A DNA stretch of 64,000 bases, taken from the NCBI RefSeq assembly GCF_038396675.1, contig NC_088932.1:22209501-22273500 (forward strand), in the 5' to 3' direction. This document shows positions 18,360 through 64,000 of the stretch, piece by piece. The notes below the pieces were generated by a model, which was not told the DNA's origin, ran no database searches, and was given only the letters and a program-made list of their open reading frames with translations. The stretch comes from Hydra vulgaris. Lineage: Eukaryota; Cnidaria; Hydrozoa; Anthoathecata; Hydridae. The position numbers were made by a program, and so were the translations under genes. Each line of letters begins with the position of its first letter. Positions within the stretch are counted from its first letter, which is position 1.

Positions 18360-20328
18360 TTTTGATATGTGTTTTTAGAAACTTAGAAGTAGTGAACATT
18401 TTTAGAGGGTTTATTTGGAGATGGAAACTTGTTAAAGTTGCTAGTACCTCAGTAAATCTACGTTTGCGAAAAATAAAACGATGTTGCTCAAAAACTTGCG
18501 AATGGTTCTTGAGTTTTTTTAATATATAAATTAGAATAAATTAAATAAATTAGAATAAATTGTTTTTTTTAATAACTAGTTTAAATGTTTAAAAACCCTG
18601 TAAAACTTTGAGAAGAAAATATGAAAAATAAAACATTTAAAAAAGTTAATTTAAAAAAATAAATAAATCCATTGCGTTTCGCCGAAGGTTAATAGAGAGC
18701 GTTTAAAACCAATTTGTACCACAACTTTGAGGTAACCTCAAAAACAATTGTACCACGTTTTAACACATCTTTATTAGAATTTTACACTATCTTCTTTATT
18801 GAAATATACAAGTAGCAAATAATTTCACATACATACGTATATATTCGTATTTTATATATTTTAACATTTATTTTACCCTGAGCTTATGGTGGTGTGTATT
18901 TATTAACTCTCTTTTTATATATGGTTGTTTTAACAAATTATAATTTTTAAATTTGATCATATGTTTAATATTAATTATGAAAATAAGAATTTATTCTAAA
19001 CAAAGCTTATTTTAGAATGTAGACGGCTTAAACTTTTTAAAATTTAGTTTTAATAATGACTTTGTATTTGTTATACCTTTAAAAAATGTTCAAAACTTAT
19101 TTTTTACTTTGGTATGAATGTTGTGACATCTGGGGTAAGTTAGAAAATAGGTTTTGTGCTCCCCTGTGCTACTCTTCACTCTTTGTTTTTATTACGGTAA
19201 AGAGTAACCTAAAAAAAGCAACATTAGGGATATATAATGGGACGGGTTAGTATTTACACGCCAAACAGACTAACTAATCAAACACTTTAACTATTGATCA
19301 AAACAAGTCATAAAACAGTTCCAGTTTGTTTAATAACATTTTTTAATTTTTTTTAGCTTTAATTATTAGTGTGGCGTATTATTTCTCTCTGTCGTATGGT
19401 TTATTAAAAATTGACAAAAATATATTTTATACAATGACTTACATATAGAGAATAACAACCTGAAGAAAACATTTAAAATAAACCATACAAACATAATGAT
19501 GGTTATTGCCTACATAAAAACATTAAACACGTAATATATTAAGTCATAAAATAGGTTATGCGCAGAGTACCGGTTTTATAAAAGTTTTAATTTTTTTTTT
19601 AAATTAGTTAAAACTTATGATTTAAAAATATTTTAAATATTGTTTTGTTAAATTAATTTTGCATTAATTAATTTGTTTGTATAAATTAAAAAAAAAACAT
19701 CCGTTAAAGCTTAAACATTATTACTGGAGTGAAACCACTACGATCAAGCTCAAACAATTACTTTTTTTTAATTTATGCAAACGGTTACAAAATTAAATTC
19801 TAGTTTCTGAAAATATACAACAGTAATATTTGAAAAATATGCAAAAACATGAATAATTGAAATTTAAAAGTTTGATAATAGACGCACATTAACTATGTTT
19901 AATAAACTATGAACGGAAAATTAGAAGTTTTTTATGTGTAATCAAAAATTCACATATCTAATGCAATACAAAATCTTATAAAGTAATCAAATAAAAACTC
20001 GGAACAGCACCCTAAAAATAAGAAAGAAACAAAATGATACCTTTTGTGAGTACAAATCTTGAAAAGTTCTTAAAATTTTTATAAATAGTTTACAGAGATA
20101 ATGAAATCTCGTTTTAAAAATTTAATGGAAATAAGCTTTCGAAAACACCCCTATTGTTATATCACAGCTCAAAAAATATTCAGAAAACTATTATCAAGTT
20201 TTAATAGGGAATCAGCTTTTATAAAAAACGAATGCAAGATTTTAAAATGCATATTAAAACATTGCAAGTTATAAACCTTCAGTTTTATTAAATTATTTTT
20301 CATTAAAACTTCAATGTCATGATAGTCT
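18360..20328. other. AT-rich tract, no gene seen
   Basis: Contains the likely polyadenylation site of the small ORF (18472) and a short palindrome TTTGAGGTAACCTCAAA near 18727-18743. Otherwise no signature. Confidence 0.5.
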
Positions 20329-20520
20329 AAAAACATGGTTTATTATCTCAAAGCTGGTAGTTAGAAGCTAGGCTGATAAAAACATGGTTTATTATCTCAA
20401 AGCTGGTAGTTAGAAGCTAGGCTGATAAAAACATGGTTTATTATCTCAAAGCTGGTAGTTAGAAGCTAGGCTGATAAAAACATGGTTTATTATCTCAAAG
20501 CTGGTAGTTAGAAGCTGATA
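20329..20520. repeat. 49-bp tandem repeat, four copies
   Basis: AAAAACATGGTTTATTATCT starts copies at 20329, 20378, 20427 and 20476, exactly 49 bp apart. The first three look identical. The last lacks AGGCT near its end. Copies abut directly with no unique spacers. Confidence 0.95.
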
Positions 20521-25242: not shown

Positions 25243-26460
25243 CTAGTCTGAGTCATCATCATCATTTTGATCTCTGTCTGGAGCAGGTCTAGCTGCCATT
25301 TGCTCTTCCATGGAGCGGTATTCCCAAACTGGTATAAAGGAATTTAACAAACCGAAGTTCTCGTTGATGAAAACCAACTTCTCAGTGGTTCATGGAGACA
25401 ACCTACATCTCTTTTCGTGGACCACCTGTCCAGCTTCACTAAAGGCCCACTCACTTGAGGCACTTGAGGCTGGCAGGCAGTAATACTCCCGTGCTAGTCT
25501 TGCCAAGATGGGTATCTCTCTGAAATGTGTCCGCCACCAGTCAAGGACATCAACCTTCGAATCTATCACAGTTGTTTCTCTGAATTTTACCCATTCAACG
25601 GTAATCGGAGGGCCCTCAGTTGTAGCATTTGTTTGCCTGAATTGACTGGACATCCAGTCTGCTGTTGTAGGATGACTGGTTTTCAACTTGTCAAAAATCT
25701 CACCCCTTACACCATAACCATGCAGTTTTTGGCCTTTCAAGAAGTGGTGTAGCAGGCAGCTTACAGCATAAAACATGATGTCACATCTTCTTCTTGAGAA
25801 TCGTTTCTCGACTTCTACAAAGATTCCTATAGAGGAGAGGTAACATGAAGCGAGCTATGCAGGCACCAATTTTAACCTTAAACCTCGAGTCAAAGTGGGC
25901 AAGCAGTCTTTGGAACAGGATGGAGTCACACATGGAGAAAGAGTGAGTCAGTTGCAAGGTAAATCATGAGCTCCACGAAATTGAGTGGTGCTCTGTGTTG
26001 GATAGCACAGATTCTCTCTGGCTTTTAGAACTTCTTTTCCTGTTATTTAAAAAAAATCGTATACGTTTGTTAACATTGAATTAACTTCGGATAACGTTGT
26101 TTACCTCAATAAAATATCATATAAATTTGACATGAAGTCGTATAACTTCGCCACATTGCATCGTAACATCCATTATTTAACCAGTTAAGGAGTTACCAGT
26201 GCCAACTGTTTCCAATTCATCTTCTGCCTCTTCAACTTTGTCCTCCTTGGCAGCCTCTGCCTCATCTCGTATCTTTTGATTCTGACACATTTCGATGTAC
26301 TCATCCTTTTGGTTGGATCGCAGGTAACCACTCAGGGTCGATGTTGACCCAGAATTCATTTTTGGTCCTTCTTGCATATATTGCACACACTATAGACCTT
26401 ATCTCCCCTGTATTCCTTCAGGAAGCACTGCCAAACCAGCGAGCGATGAGTCTTTGGCAT
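25243..26460 (-). pseudogene. hAT transposase with BED finger, internally deleted
   Basis: Starts at the ATG at 26460. MPKTHRSLVWQCF and VCNICKK form the Trp and Cys-x2-Cys part of a BED zinc finger, which binds DNA. A frameshift near 26385 moves to the frame with GSTSTLSGYLRSNQKDEY. After an acidic stretch and a degenerate middle (25790-26040), the reading resumes at 25776 and includes VLDWWRTHFREIPILARLAR and SSASSEWAFSEAGQVV, the hAT C-terminal dimerisation region. A short tail rich in Asp ends at TAG 25243. About 1.2 kb against roughly 2 kb for a complete hAT ORF, so much of the RNase-H-like catalytic core is missing. I found no flanking inverted ends. Confidence 0.85.
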
Positions 26461-32294: not shown

Positions 32295-32299
32295 CGATG
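32295..32299. repeat. Left target-site duplication CGATG of Transib
   Basis: CGATG abuts the left terminal heptamer and is repeated exactly at 35242-35246. Five-base, GC-leaning duplications are the Transib/RAG hallmark. Confidence 0.9.
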
Positions 32300-32327
32300 C
32301 ACAGTGGGCCAGGTGGTAGACAAAACC
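32300..32327 (+). promoter_or_regulatory. Left Transib end: 12-type signal-like site
   Basis: Heptamer CACAGTG (32300-32306), 12-bp spacer (32307-32318), then GACAAAACC (32319-32327), one base short of the canonical nonamer. This is the presumed transposase binding and cleavage site. Confidence 0.8.
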
Positions 32328-32963
32328 TCAAAAAAAAAATTTCGAAATACTTCCAACTACTTAGTACATTATATTTATAAGAGCATAATGTATGGTTTAA
32401 AACATTATTTGTAGTTTAATTGTACATCATAAATGTACAATTATTATTTACAATTGAATATAATGGTGAATTAATTTTTTTTTTTTTTTTAATATACCAT
32501 AACAACATAACTATAACAACAAATAACTTTTAAATTATTTAACATATGCGAAATTAATTGACATATTATTAAAATTTAATTTGATAGCTTTTCAAAAAAT
32601 ACCATAACAAATTCCAAGGTCTTGTATTAAAGTCACAGTTTTATTTTGAAATATAAAGGTAAGATTCTTGTTTATAGTATAAAAATATTATGTTAAAAGT
32701 GGCTCATATAATTTAGAACCTGCTGGAACATATGTACAGCCTGTTGGTGCTGTTTTATTCTGCTCATAGCTGCCCCTTTAGGTTTGGTAAACATTTAAAA
32801 AATATATATTGTTGTAAAATGCTATTCGCGACAAACCTATTTTTTGGTTTGTTGTCATTATTAGGTGTTGTGCTTATTGTACTGGCCTAATTAAATATAT
32901 CTGAAATAAAAATAATGGCCATATTCATTCTAATAATTTTAAATTAATTTTTTTGTAGTTGAT

Positions 32964-35010
32964 ATGAAGATAAGTGATGTCCATAACCGTATACGGCATG
33001 ACCAACTAAATCCGAGTGATAAATCATTTTCTTTGTCTGTAGAAGCTATTTTAGTCTCTATGAATTTGGGTTCTACTGGGTGTGCTGCATTTTTAAAAGT
33101 TTATCAAAAGAAATGGAAGGATGCAAACCGAGGAAACATAAAGTTTGAGAGTAAAAATAAAAATTGGTTGACTCAGGACTTTAAATCTACATACAGTAAT
33201 AATATATCTAAGCCTGATAATTCTAGTCAATTACATAAGATTGGTGGAAGACCAAGTTGTTCCTTTAAAGTTGCTTCTGACAAAACCAAAAGGAGAAGAC
33301 TTAATGATATTATAAATAATTTTTCTAGTGATGAGTTGCTCCACTCAGCAAGGCTTAAATTAAGAAATGAGTATAATTATGAGGCTGCCAAGCAAGTTGG
33401 TGAGATATCAGAACCTTCTAGTCAATTTAAAAAGTATACACCTGATGAAGGTCTGGCATTAATTATAGATGGTGGCATGTCAAAATCAACCTACCAACTT
33501 ATGAGAAATGGAGCTGAAGAACGTGACTGCCATATATATCCTTCATACAACAACATAAGATTGTCCAAAGCTAAGTGCTATCCAGAGAACATCTTTGTTG
33601 ATGATTATTCAGCATATGTACCACTACAAGAATTATTAAAACATACAGTAAAAAGACTTTGTGAGGTGCAAGCTCCTGTGATCAGCACAATGCTAGATGG
33701 TTTGACCCGGTTGACTTTGCGTTGCAAGGCTGGGTTTGATGGGGCTACTGGGCAAAGCATGTACAAGCAAATTAGTAGTGAGGAAGCTGGAGATCGTAAC
33801 TTAAAAAAAGAAGAATCTCTGTTCATTACCTGCGTTGCACCACTAGAACCCAGTGGGTTCTGTAATAACAAAAAAGTACTATTATGGCGAAATGAAAAGC
33901 CATCATCTACTGCCTATTGTCGTCCAATAAGATTTTCTTTTCAAAATGAAAGCAAAGCAGTTGTTATAGAAGAAGCAAAATATTTAGAATCTGAAATCAA
34001 AAAATGTGGTGTTTTTAATTTTACTTTTAATGGAAAGGAACTGGTTGTCAAAAGTATTATTGAACTGACCATGATTGATGGCAAAATTCAAACTATTCTG
34101 TCTCATGTGACTAACTCAACTCAATGTTGCTCTGTGTGTGGTGTGTCTCCAAAAACATGAATAACTTAGAAATGGTGCTGAAATTGGACAATTCTAATAA
34201 TTTAGAATTGAAATATGGTCTTTCTAGCCTGCATGCCTGGATTAGGTTTTTTGAGATGGTATTACATATTGGATATAAACTAGAAACTCAAAAGTGGCAG
34301 TCTAGAGCTATAGAAGATAAAGAAAATGTTATGCAAGTGAAGAAACGTATACAGACAGAATTTATGAACCAAATGGGACTAGTTGTGGATTTCCCAAAAA
34401 GTGGAGGATCTGGTAAGTGAAATTACATAAATACTTTTATATAAATCATCAGGTTAACTATCACATATATACAATTTGTAGGTACCAGTAATGATGGTAA
34501 CACTGCCCGACGAGCCTTTGCAAACTATCAATCAACTGCCAAAATTTTGAAAGTAGATGAAACTCTTTTATTTTATTTTTACATCATACTAGTCACTTTA
34601 TCATCTGGATTTGAAATTGACACTGTCAAATTTAAAGAGTTCTGTATTACTGCTCTTAAACTTTACATATCTAAGTATTCCTGGTATTACATGGCACAAT
34701 CAGTACACAAATTTTAGTTCATGGCCATGCCATCATTGCTAGACAGTACTTGCCAATTGGACTGATGTCAGAGGAGGCCCAAGAGGCCTGTAACAAGGAT
34801 TTTAAAAAGTTTAGGGAAGATTTCAGTAGAAAGACTTCCAGAATTGACACAAATCGTGACCTAGTTAACAGGCTACTTGTATCTAGTGATCCTGTCATAA
34901 CATCATTAAGAAAGTGTCATAAAAAAAATGGTAAGAGTTTAAAAAAATACCCAAGTGAAGTTTTGGCTTTGCTGAGGGAATCAGCTCCACCTTCTTCTTT
35001 TTCTTTGTAG
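32964..35010 (+). pseudogene. Transib transposase (RAG1-core-like), two frameshifts
   Basis: This enzyme would cut at the heptamers and paste the element elsewhere by a DDE mechanism, the same chemistry RAG1 uses in V(D)J recombination. The start follows a likely splice acceptor (TTTTTTGTAG, about 32958), so a short upstream exon may exist. ORF 32964-34160 contains IGGRPSCSFK, the first Asp in AGFDGATGQSMYKQ (GAT at 33738), KPSSTAYCRPIRFSF, the second Asp in MIDGKIQ (GAT at 34077) and the zinc-binding pair CSVC. One lost base near 34158 shifts the frame. GLSSLHAWIRFFEMVLH follows, then an intron 34413-34481 (GTAAGT...TTGTAG), then GTSNDGNTARRAF. A second lost base near 34709 falls between the two His of VHK/ILVH. 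The third acidic residue lies in MSEEAQEACNKDF (34765-34800). Total about 650 codons, the normal size. Confidence 0.93.
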
Positions 35011-35202
35011 CTAAACACAATTTGTTGTTTGATTTTTAAAAAAGGTTGATATTGAAAAAAATATTTTTTTACTACCTAAGCCAATTAAATGTCTTTTATT
35101 TTATTAAAAATTAAAATATTCTTGTTAAAAATAAATATTATTTCATATATAATGATTATTTATATATCTAAATAGGTTTGTGGACCAATTGGGTAATAAT
35201 TA

Positions 35203-35241
35203 GGTTTTGTCCACCACTTCCCATATACCTGGCCCACTGTG
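35203..35241 (-). promoter_or_regulatory. Right Transib end: 23-type signal-like site
   Basis: On the minus strand: heptamer CACAGTG (35241-35235), a 23-bp spacer, then GACAAAACC ending at 35203. The first eight spacer bases (GGCCAGGT) equal those of the left end, so the extra 11 bp lie in the middle. Confidence 0.8.
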
Positions 35242-35246
35242 CGATG
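35242..35246. repeat. Right target-site duplication CGATG of Transib
   Basis: Exact copy of 32295-32299. Confidence 0.9.
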
Positions 35247-36482: not shown

Positions 36483-38245
36483 CCATACACGGAGAGTTTG
36501 CTGGGTTGTCGTCTAGACAATATTCCTGTCATAGTCTTAAAAAGTGTTCTCCAGAACTCACTTCAATACTCTCTTAACAGTTTAATAAGTGCTTGACTAA
36601 ATCTTGTTTTCCTACCTGCTGGAAAATCACGTGGTTCCAATGTTTAAAAACTCTTTTAAAAACACTATGACGTACATAATCAAATATCTAATATCTTATC
36701 TTGAGTATAATAGCTTATTCTCTGATAATCAATGCGGATTTCAATTCACTTAATCTAAAGCTGACTTGTTAACTGTTATAAAAAAAATGTTCTTTTGTGC
36801 ATTTAACGGTGGTGGTGGGACAGGGCTATTACTTTTGACATATCGAAGAATTTTGATCAAGTCTAGGATTTGTTTTTTATAAGCTTGCTTCATAAGGTGA
36901 TTCTGATAAAGTTTTTGACCGCGGAATTAAAGTTGTCCTTAAAGACTTACACACTTATTCATTTGAGCCACTGTCGTAAAGTTGTATATCTTTTCCATCA
37001 TCTCAAGTTACATCAATAAAATTTATTCTCAGGTGACTTGTCATTCAGTAAAGTTGCATCTCTTTACTGTATCTGTTCCCGCTCTAAAAACCTTTATTCA
37101 TCTTGTTTTTTTTCCTTGCGTCAATTTCAATCTTTTATAACTTCATGTTTTCCTGAGCCGGTTTTTACAGATGATATAAGTTGATATGCTTCTATACGAG
37201 TATGTTCATACGTACGGAAGCATGTATTATAAACTCATCAATCAAATGATTAAGATCAAGAGTGTAGGCAATATCACAATGGCAATTTATAATTTGAGAT
37301 GATTCAATCGCTCAGGTATACATAATAAAATCTTTGCCTGCTTTAAAAACTCGGCAATCAATGGATTTAATTGAGAAAAGACACCATTATGGTCTACAAA
37401 CTCGCTAAAAACTGATTCAAAATCATTCAGTTGAATATTCTAAATAAATATATGTAACAAGCAGGGTACCCCTGGGCTCTGTGCTTAGTCCGCTTCTTTT
37501 TATCTTGTATATATCAAATGACCTCAAAGTCCGTGCCCAGGTAGAGTCTACAGTCTCAGTAGCCAATTACAAATTGGGCCTACTAAAAGAAGTATTCCGA
37601 AGCAGAAGCATTTATCTCTGGCGAACGCTTTACATCACATATGTGCGCCCACACCTGGAATTCGCTATTCAAGCATGGTCTCCTCACCTAAAAAAGGATA
37701 TCAATATGCTTGAAAGAGTTCAGCGCAGAGCGACAAAAGTTTCCTCAATCAAACATCTCCCATATGAGCAACGCTTAAATATATTTAGAATGACAACACT
37801 GGAAGAGAGAAGAGCTAGAGGAGATCTTATTGAACAGTTTAAAATTAAAAATAGAATTGATGATGTTAACTTTTTTGTTCCTCAAAGGATCTCTAACAAC
37901 GTATATTGCAAGAGGAGTCACAATAATCAGCTACACAGACAAATTGTTAGCGATTGCGAGGAGCGACATCACTTTTTAACTAATCGTGTCACACCGTCCT
38001 GGAATATGCTACCACAGGAAGCAATTGACACTCACTCGGTCAGCTTATTTAAAAGTTTCCTATCATGATGGGCATCTTGTCTCGTTGACAATTAGCCCTA
38101 CACATTAGTTAGTATAGAGATGCCTGGTGTTGCATCTCTTCGTCAATATACTTTATAATTAATGATTGACTAATTTACAGTATTATTGAATTTGTAAAAA
38201 CATTAAAAAAAAATTATTATTGATTGTAAATTTATTGATTCTAAA
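36483..38245 (+). mobile_element. CR1/jockey-like LINE, copy 1
   Basis: The plus strand reads through a decayed RT ORF in changing frames: DNIPVIVLKS (36510), LFSDNQCGF (36715-36745), AITFDISKNFDQV (36825-36865, RT domain with Asp), then from 37460 VPLGSVLSPLLFILYI and the thumb region to a stop at 38068. The open piece 37481-38068 joins the RT motif directly to the C-terminus, so the YADD-type active-site block has been deleted. The 3' UTR contains GATGCCTGGTGTTGCATCTC and ends near 38245 in AAATAAAATCAAATTCAAAT. It is dead. Confidence 0.85.
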
Positions 38246-62988: not shown

Positions 62989-64000
62989 TTAAAAACATAA
63001 AGCATTAAGTGTTTTATCATTTAACCTTGACCTTAGTTTAGTGACAAATAGACCATTTGCAGAAAATGACCTTTCAGCTTCCACACTTGTTACGTGGATT
63101 GACTTCAAAGCTAAGTTGCTTGTTCGTTTTTTTGTTAGTTCAAATACTGCCATTTCTTTGAGCATTTGTTTTGAAATTGGTTCTATTTTTTGTTTCTTTG
63201 GTGAAACCCCTTTGACTTTCTCTCTGATGGAGAACTCGAGCTCTTCTGACAAGGAAGTAAATTGTTGTACTTGTTCCTGACTAGTTTCATGATCTGACAA
63301 ATTTTCCTCATTTATAGACTCACTTCTCTTTTGCTCAAACAAACGATTAAACAAACTTGATGCAGTAGTAACAACTGCATTTCTCTTTGGCATGGAATTT
63401 TCGAAAATGTCATAAGTTGCTCTATTAATGACATCAGGATTAATCAGATATTTAACTAAGTTTACTAATATGCCATTTCCTTCTTTCAGTGACTCTTTTA
63501 GTAAATGAGTCAATTAGCTCTTGACTAAAGGTGTTTTCCTGACTATTTAGCTGCTTGAAAATGAACTTCAGAATGCCATTAGATGAGTTCAAGTTCGAAT
63601 CTCTTCTGTAAAGTGCTTCAGCACCAACCTTGATTGGTTCTAAAAAATTTAAAATATTTTGTAAAATTCAGACTCAGAAATCATAATATCGCTTGATAAC
63701 TCAATTAGTGACATTCAAATACATTCCTCAAGGGTCACAAATCTTAAAATCATATCTTGTAAGCTGTTTCAATGTGTCTTAGAGTCTAAAATTAGCTGCA
63801 GCTTCTTAATTTTAAAATTAATTATGTCATTTTTAACTTGAGACTTTAAAAACAATCTGACACATTTTCTGACCTTTTTTATAAGTTCTGTGACATCCTC
63901 CCTGATTATTGTAAGAGCTGATGAACCTGCTTCTGCTGAAACTTCTAATCCTCCTTCCTCATCATGGTCATCATCTTCTTGGTCCTCTTCTAGAATAGTG
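62989..64000 (-). pseudogene. hAT transposase, C-terminal half, broken and cut by the window edge
   Basis: Minus strand from the right edge: an acidic stretch (EEDQEDDDHDEEGG), IIREDVTELIKKVRKCVRLF and KIKKLQLILDSKT, a stop at about 63765, then SLQDMILRFVTLEE, a stop, and after a frameshift LEPIKVGAEALYRRDSNLNS (63635-63575). The last ORF (63513-62989) gives MPKRNAVVTTASSLFNRLFE and, at the end, TSVEAERSFSANGLFVTKLR with SRLNDKTLNAL, the hAT dimerisation region ('S.E.ERSFS..G.....R.RL'). At least two stops and one or two frameshifts. The N-terminal part lies beyond the window. Confidence 0.88.

Follow-up and report, generated by a model that had tools for sequence, protein, structure and literature searches.

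Bipartite 12/23-spaced ends of a Transib transposon in Hydra vulgaris and the spacer lengths of its sister families

Transib transposons bear on the origin of the antibody-gene 12/23 rule. In the available passages of PMC8355894, the 12/23 preference is recognised only by vertebrate RAG1 complexed with RAG2, which ties recognition to RAG2, yet the same passages report 12/23 ends for some insect Transib transposons, namely Transib5 of Drosophila melanogaster and Transib2, N1, N2 and N3 of Anopheles gambiae. A 12/23 Transib is therefore, on those passages, a kind of element that is already known. The known Transibs encode a transposase only, according to excerpts of PMC4411706. The nonamer-binding domain with which RAG1 reads the nonamer of the recombination signal (RSS) is attached by a flexible hinge (PMC7204232, in excerpt), and Transibs have an equivalent nonamer-binding domain with a GRP motif (PMC9435367). 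Tao et al. (2022; PMC9435367) observed that Subgroup II Transibs include both asymmetric and symmetric TIRs, in a set of elements that includes Hydra vulgaris.

The element considered here occupies positions 32300–35241 of the window, which is the whole 64,000-nucleotide stretch of H. vulgaris DNA that was analysed. Like the insect 12/23 Transibs, it is a Transib with bipartite ends, one with a spacer of about 12 bp and one of about 23 bp (available passages of PMC8355894); it belongs to another host and another family, and the comparison covers the described spacers. HzTransib of Helicoverpa zea (PDB 6pqn and relatives) has a homologous transposase, but its ends are symmetric and bear little or no nonamer similarity (excerpts of PMC8289069). 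Amphioxus ProtoRAG is alike in its asymmetric bipartite TIRs and length-sensitive spacers. However, the spacers of ProtoRAG are 27/31 and its second element is different (excerpts of PMC8289069 and PMC8355894), and it carries RAG2L (PMC9435367). With the vertebrate RSS the element shares an identical heptamer, CACAGTG, an 11-bp difference in spacer length and an A-rich second block, and with RAG1 a GRP motif in the N-terminal region (a RAG1 motif according to PMC9435367). Unlike the vertebrate RSS and RAG1/RAG2 system, it has no RAG2-sized second gene by its ORF lists, and its block is one A short.

HvuTransib-7_HMp and HvuTransib-9_HMp (Tao et al. 2022, PMC9435367) and the Repbase Hydra Transibs share the host genus and are known here by description only; it is possible that the family of the window element, designated family A, is identical with one catalogued Hydra Transib entry. 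Text searches of the literature, with figures, Repbase and most subscription papers outside their scope, found no description of 12/23 ends in a Hydra Transib. Literature text searches likewise found no description of a side-by-side spacer series within one genome.

Ends and transposase gene of the window element

The element is flanked by identical copies of CGATG on the forward strand, at 32295–32299 and 35242–35246. The left end, on the forward strand, consists of the terminal heptamer CACAGTG (32300–32306), recognised by sequence reading and pattern search, the 12-bp spacer GGCCAGGTGGTA (32307–32318) and a nonamer-like second block, GACAAAACC (32319–32327). On the reverse strand, the right end presents the heptamer CACAGTG (35235–35241), the 23-bp spacer GGCCAGGTATATGGGAAGTGGTG (35212–35234) and the same second block, GACAAAACC (35203–35211). 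The first eight spacer bases (GGCCAGGT) are the same at both ends, and the extra 11 bp of the right end lie inside the spacer. The heptamers, the exact 12- and 23-bp spacings, the placement of the extra 11 bp and the CGATG flanks had all been claimed in a first-pass annotation of this DNA, and each was borne out when both strands were read. Two Transib hallmarks are thus found on the element: a 5-bp TSD, and TIRs at both ends that start with CAC and resemble the RSS heptamer.

The pattern CACAGTG-N{8,26}-GACAAAA occurs at two places in the window, both of them ends of this element, against 0.02 expected in shuffles. As CACAGTG alone is ordinary in the window (four places, 2.2 expected), the evidential weight lies in the combination of heptamer and block. 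The 12/23 end pattern of the window element is real; it is neither due to chance nor unique.

The fit to the vertebrate nonamer depends on how the spacer is counted. Against the RSS consensus nonamer ACAAAAACC (taken from the available part of PMC8289069), GACAAAACC matches at 6/9 positions with spacers of 12/23, and ACAAAACCT matches at 7/9 with spacers of 13/24. Spacing is exactly 12/23 when anchored on AAAACC and 13/24 when anchored on ACAAAA; the 11-bp difference between left and right is the same whichever anchor is used. The first-pass annotation had called the nonamer one base short and the match weakened by this; the block is indeed one A short.

The first part of the transposase frame runs from the first ATG at 32964 to 34160 (+), within an open frame of 405 aa at 32943–34160 that contains a GGRP motif, the HzTransib-matching region and a GFDGATGQ motif. 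HzTransib (PDB 6pqn) matches residues 165–403 of this frame with E=6.5e-30 (phmmer) and, together with the alignment and the tree described below, this upholds the earlier assignment to Transib. Exon 1 continues in another frame at 34115–34412 (+), this copy being frameshifted relative to others, and is followed by a putative 69-bp intron, GTAAGT ... TTTGTAG (34413–34481, +); family C codes the corresponding GGSG-TSNDGNT junction uninterrupted. Exon 2 opens with TSNDGNTARR... (34482–34717, +), and its C-terminal part lies in a last frame at 34675–35010 (+), beyond a second frameshift relative to the copy L062. Over its length, the twice-frameshifted window copy is 97.2% identical to L062. The main-exon frame of family A measures 492 aa in many other copies. 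No family A copy is called complete, because the last frame of L062 stops earlier than that of the window copy.

Pfam gave no significant match for the window frames, with RAG1 at a sub-cutoff E=0.018 for the 34675–35010 frame, and the first window frame matched no RAG1 chain at E≤1 in a search against solved structures. One ORF list of the element shows no non-transposase open frame longer than 102 aa, and in a second list none reaches 150 aa; judged by these lists, a RAG2-sized partner gene is absent. On this evidence, the window element is classed as a cut-and-paste Transib transposon of family A, single-gene by its ORF lists.

Pairing of short and long ends in families A and B

Genome-wide counts were made on the H. 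vulgaris assembly (911.5 Mb, 15 contigs). CACAGTG-N12-GACAAAACC occurs at 163 places against five for the reversed control, ends of families A, B and D being counted together. When the gap was allowed to vary from 8 to 18 bp, 172 places were found (reversed control, seven), and the spacer was exactly 12 bp in 163 of these A, B and D ends.

The 12-spaced end of family A has 41 exact genome places, and its 23-spaced end has 38 at up to three mismatches (control, 0). Together with four variant 12-ends among the matches listed, these make 83 ends. Of these, 60 can be matched up as 30 inward-facing pairs at distances of up to 12 kb, and the other 23 are unpaired. All 30 pairs are 12/23. Equal spacers or an unconserved block in other copies of the family, against which the first-pass annotation had proposed to check its reading, were thus not found. 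Identical 5-mers flank all six copies for which both flanks were read, and the flanks of the 23-spaced ends (n=30) favour C-A-N-T-G, with C in 26, A in 19, T in 17 and G in 24.

Family B has about 69% protein identity to family A in the queried region. Its long end, GGCCGGATATTAGACATATGGTG, has a spacer of 23 bp and 199 genome places at up to three mismatches. Among the matches listed on contigs C1–C8 (84 12-ends, 60 B 23-ends and 20 A 23-ends), all 52 inward pairs of A and B are 12/23 (18 A, 34 B), and no 12/12 or 23/23 pair occurs among them. Six family D rows on C1–C8 were kept out of this count because both D ends proved to be 12-spaced; for the same reason family D, caught by the 12-spaced pattern, was rejected as a source of extra 12/23 copies. 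Unpaired among the matches listed on C1–C8 are 32 of the 84 12-ends and 26 of the 60 B 23-ends; for these, as for the 23 unpaired ends of family A, truncation, mismatch, nesting or partners beyond the matches listed are candidate causes. The B copies in pairs are 1.7–3.3 kb long, with a few longer, and the four A and B pairs (of 52) that exceed 5 kb may hold nested insertions.

The 23-bp spacers of A and B have 15 of 23 bases in common; by this comparison, spacer sequence drifts while spacer length holds. Of 14 B-type loci scanned for a TSD, five had an exact one and five had one mismatch, and at four no right end was found. One exception in spacer length is the B copy L048 (G000:C2:29549300-29556300), whose right spacer is 21 bp, among ten B right ends examined. 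Another locus, L072 (G000:C2:66635349-66635378), is an old A-like copy whose right spacer, at 14 bp, is 9 bp shorter than the usual 23 and so corresponds to a loss of that length. Its right end has no further genome place within three mismatches, and its left end was not found; the possibility of a 12/14 family was rejected, this being a single damaged copy with no relatives within three mismatches. The left end of the element at L074 was also looked for and not found. In families A and B alike, the 12/23 asymmetry is fixed across the listed copies.

Sister families and the order of spacer changes

Other Transib families of the same genome differ in spacer length. Family C is about 60% identical, with 670-residue open frames in many copies, and has 12/21 ends: the exact ends listed on C1–C3 (95 short, 87 long) gave 70 inward pairs, every one of them 12/21, with no same-type pair among them. 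The TSD was exact in all three copies fetched, in a scan that itself required identity. At the mismatch limits used, long (21) ends number 853 against 529 short (12) ends, and a subfamily whose left end differs could be concealed in this excess.

Family D encodes a Transib transposase and has the heptamer and block of family A, although its spacer agrees with that of A at only 4 of 12 bases. Its 58 ends gave 15 inward pairs, with 28 ends unpaired; these pairs are 12/12, the only kind obtainable from a search with a single pattern. At six D loci scanned for a TSD, two were exact, two had one mismatch and two had none. One D copy, L046 (G000:C1:72900424-72904704), contains a second set of transposase-like frames inside the element, by its motif probably a nested Tc1/mariner-type insertion.

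Families E, F, H and I, known from one copy each, are 21/21, as counted to a block of GA(T/A)CAAAA or GCCAAAA. The TSD is exact in E and in H, where the right heptamer is CATAGTG, and agrees at four of five bases in I and at three of five in F. Family I matches HzTransib with E=5.1e-119 and amphioxus RAG1L weakly, with E=6.6e-07; in Pfam its RAG1 match is sub-cutoff only. Measured from the heptamer to CAAAA, the distances are 14/25 in A and B, 14/23 in C, 14/14 in D, 24/24 in E and F, and 23/23 in H and I. Whether the block or CAAAA is used, the spacers form two classes whose lengths differ by roughly a helical turn.

A maximum-likelihood tree of the transposases was built from eight rows, with D represented by 285 residues and F, known from its ends only, left out. 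Support was 100/99 for A+B, 100/100 for A+B+C and 100/100 for D+E; the deeper nodes are weakly supported (70/80 and 73/75). Since A, B and C group with one another and D groups with E, it is probable that 21/21 ends gave rise to 12-bp spacers on two or more occasions. The parsimonious order would place 21/21 first, then a shortening of the left end in A/B/C, and later a change from 21 to 23 in A/B, with both ends shortened independently in family D. This order, from 21/21 through 12/21 to 12/23, rests on parsimony across few families, given a tree of eight rows with a short D sequence and weak deep nodes. On this reading, 12/23 in this genome probably evolved from 21/21 via 12/21, independently of vertebrate RAG.

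Given the 12/12, 12/21 and 21/21 sister families, 12/23 looks like one evolved, derived variant rather than a universal ancestral rule. The first-pass annotation had proposed a 12/23 synapsis rule that preceded any immune role: the asymmetry is indeed fixed in families A and B, but the sister families and the tree speak against an ancestral rule. The element also shows that a 12/23 spacing like that of the RSS can come about without an immune role. The families of this genome share a heptamer and have blocks that resemble one another, combined with different spacers and known transposase differences, and the presence of 12/23, 12/21, 12/12 and 21/21 Transibs in one genome, family C with open 670-residue frames, makes the origin of the rule testable.

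A proposed pairing preference and its alternatives

In the proposed mechanism, a transposase dimer would hold the heptamer and the proximal spacer rigidly, while an N-terminal, nonamer-binding-like region with the GRP motif would bind the A-rich block GACAAAA via a flexible arm. Like the arm described in RAG1, this one would allow the block to move by roughly a turn of the helix. The ends of the A/B/C clade would have come to differ by nearly one turn (9 or 11 bp), and from this spacing it is probable that transposition in that clade favours one short and one long end. We infer the nonamer-binding role of the N-terminal region from a short motif and from the domain described in PMC9435367. The motif reads GGRP in A, GRP in B, GRK in C and GRP in E and I in the alignment. 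In a comparison with solved structures, the final residues of the N-terminal part of family C matched HzTransib, and the other chains matched were weak and unrelated.

The linker from the N-terminal region to the catalytic core has 10 residues in A, 12 in B and 9 in C, versus 26 in D, 24 in E and 23 in I. Because D has short spacers and keeps a long linker, the short linker tracks the asymmetric clade and not the short spacer. The linker difference amounts to one event in one clade, which does not separate cause from coincidence; perhaps the linker ahead of the catalytic core became shorter as the proposed 12/23-type pairing rule evolved.

Taken jointly, the explanation that we consider likely is that the window element is a family A Transib whose bipartite 12/23 ends evolved from 21/21 ends, with a preference for pairing a short and a long end. 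The stronger proposal is that a non-immune transposase lineage of a cnidarian acquired a 12/23-type pairing rule step by step on its own, with no RAG2 and separately from vertebrates; it is advanced as tentative and rather doubtful. If it were true, the families would form a natural panel for the transposase changes that create spacer-length pairing. The hypothesised functional 12/23 pairing rule would not be general, as families with symmetric ends, both 12/12 (D) and 21/21 (E, F, H and I), have also spread.

In the strongest alternative, the 12/23 ends are simply inherited and obey no synapsis rule; each end would be recognised separately, and both would persist from one 12/23 founder. This alternative is credible, at somewhat less than an even chance. 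The copies are close kin (the first 31 family A rows listed are 95–100% identical in the queried region), and the symmetric 12/12 and 21/21 families share the genome. Because copies share descent, uniform pairing is no independent test of a synapsis rule; common descent alone keeps both ends, and copy counts are therefore no evidence that symmetric pairs are unable to synapse. On the other hand, the long spacers of A and B have come to differ at 8 of 23 bases while both lengths were kept, and same-type pairs are absent from the 52 A and B pairs and the 70 C pairs listed, which include B copies of widely varied length.

A chance match between freely varying spacer lengths and the vertebrate values is improbable. 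It would accommodate the presence of 12, 21 and 23 side by side and a nonamer match of just 6–7 of 9, but the lengths group around two values that differ by roughly a helical turn, the short spacer is exactly 12 bp at nearly all of the A, B and D places counted above, and family D arrives at 12 as well although few of its spacer bases match those of A. Still less probable is that Transib and RAG started out from 12/23, and that the 12/21, 12/12 and 21/21 families lost it. Insect Transibs are also 12/23 (available passages of PMC8355894), and Tao et al. (2022, PMC9435367) propose asymmetric TIRs as the ancestral condition of Subgroup I Transibs and of RAGL. In this genome, however, families C, E, F, H and I all have a long spacer of 21 bp; the 23-bp length is confined to A and B, which are nested most deeply in the tree. 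Furthermore, most Transib families are symmetric in the available text of PMC8289069, and symmetric Transibs have spacers of 20–22 bp in that of PMC8355894; the first-pass annotation, too, had most Transib ends as more symmetric and a few as 12/23-like. A derived 12/23 arrangement with a short-plus-long preference in the A/B/C clade remains the preferred reading.

Several minor features were observed in the genome and the window. Three A-type 12-spaced ends lie on one strand about 15 kb apart (G000:C12:28920802, 28935786 and 28950813), which suggests tandem duplication of a unit of about 15 kb. Elsewhere in the window, open frames at 25390–25854 (−), 62989–63513 (−) and 37448–38068 (+) look by eye, from their motifs, like hAT transposase ends and a reverse transcriptase. 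A 49-bp tandem repeat spans 20328–20516, with 3.9 copies and 100% matches.
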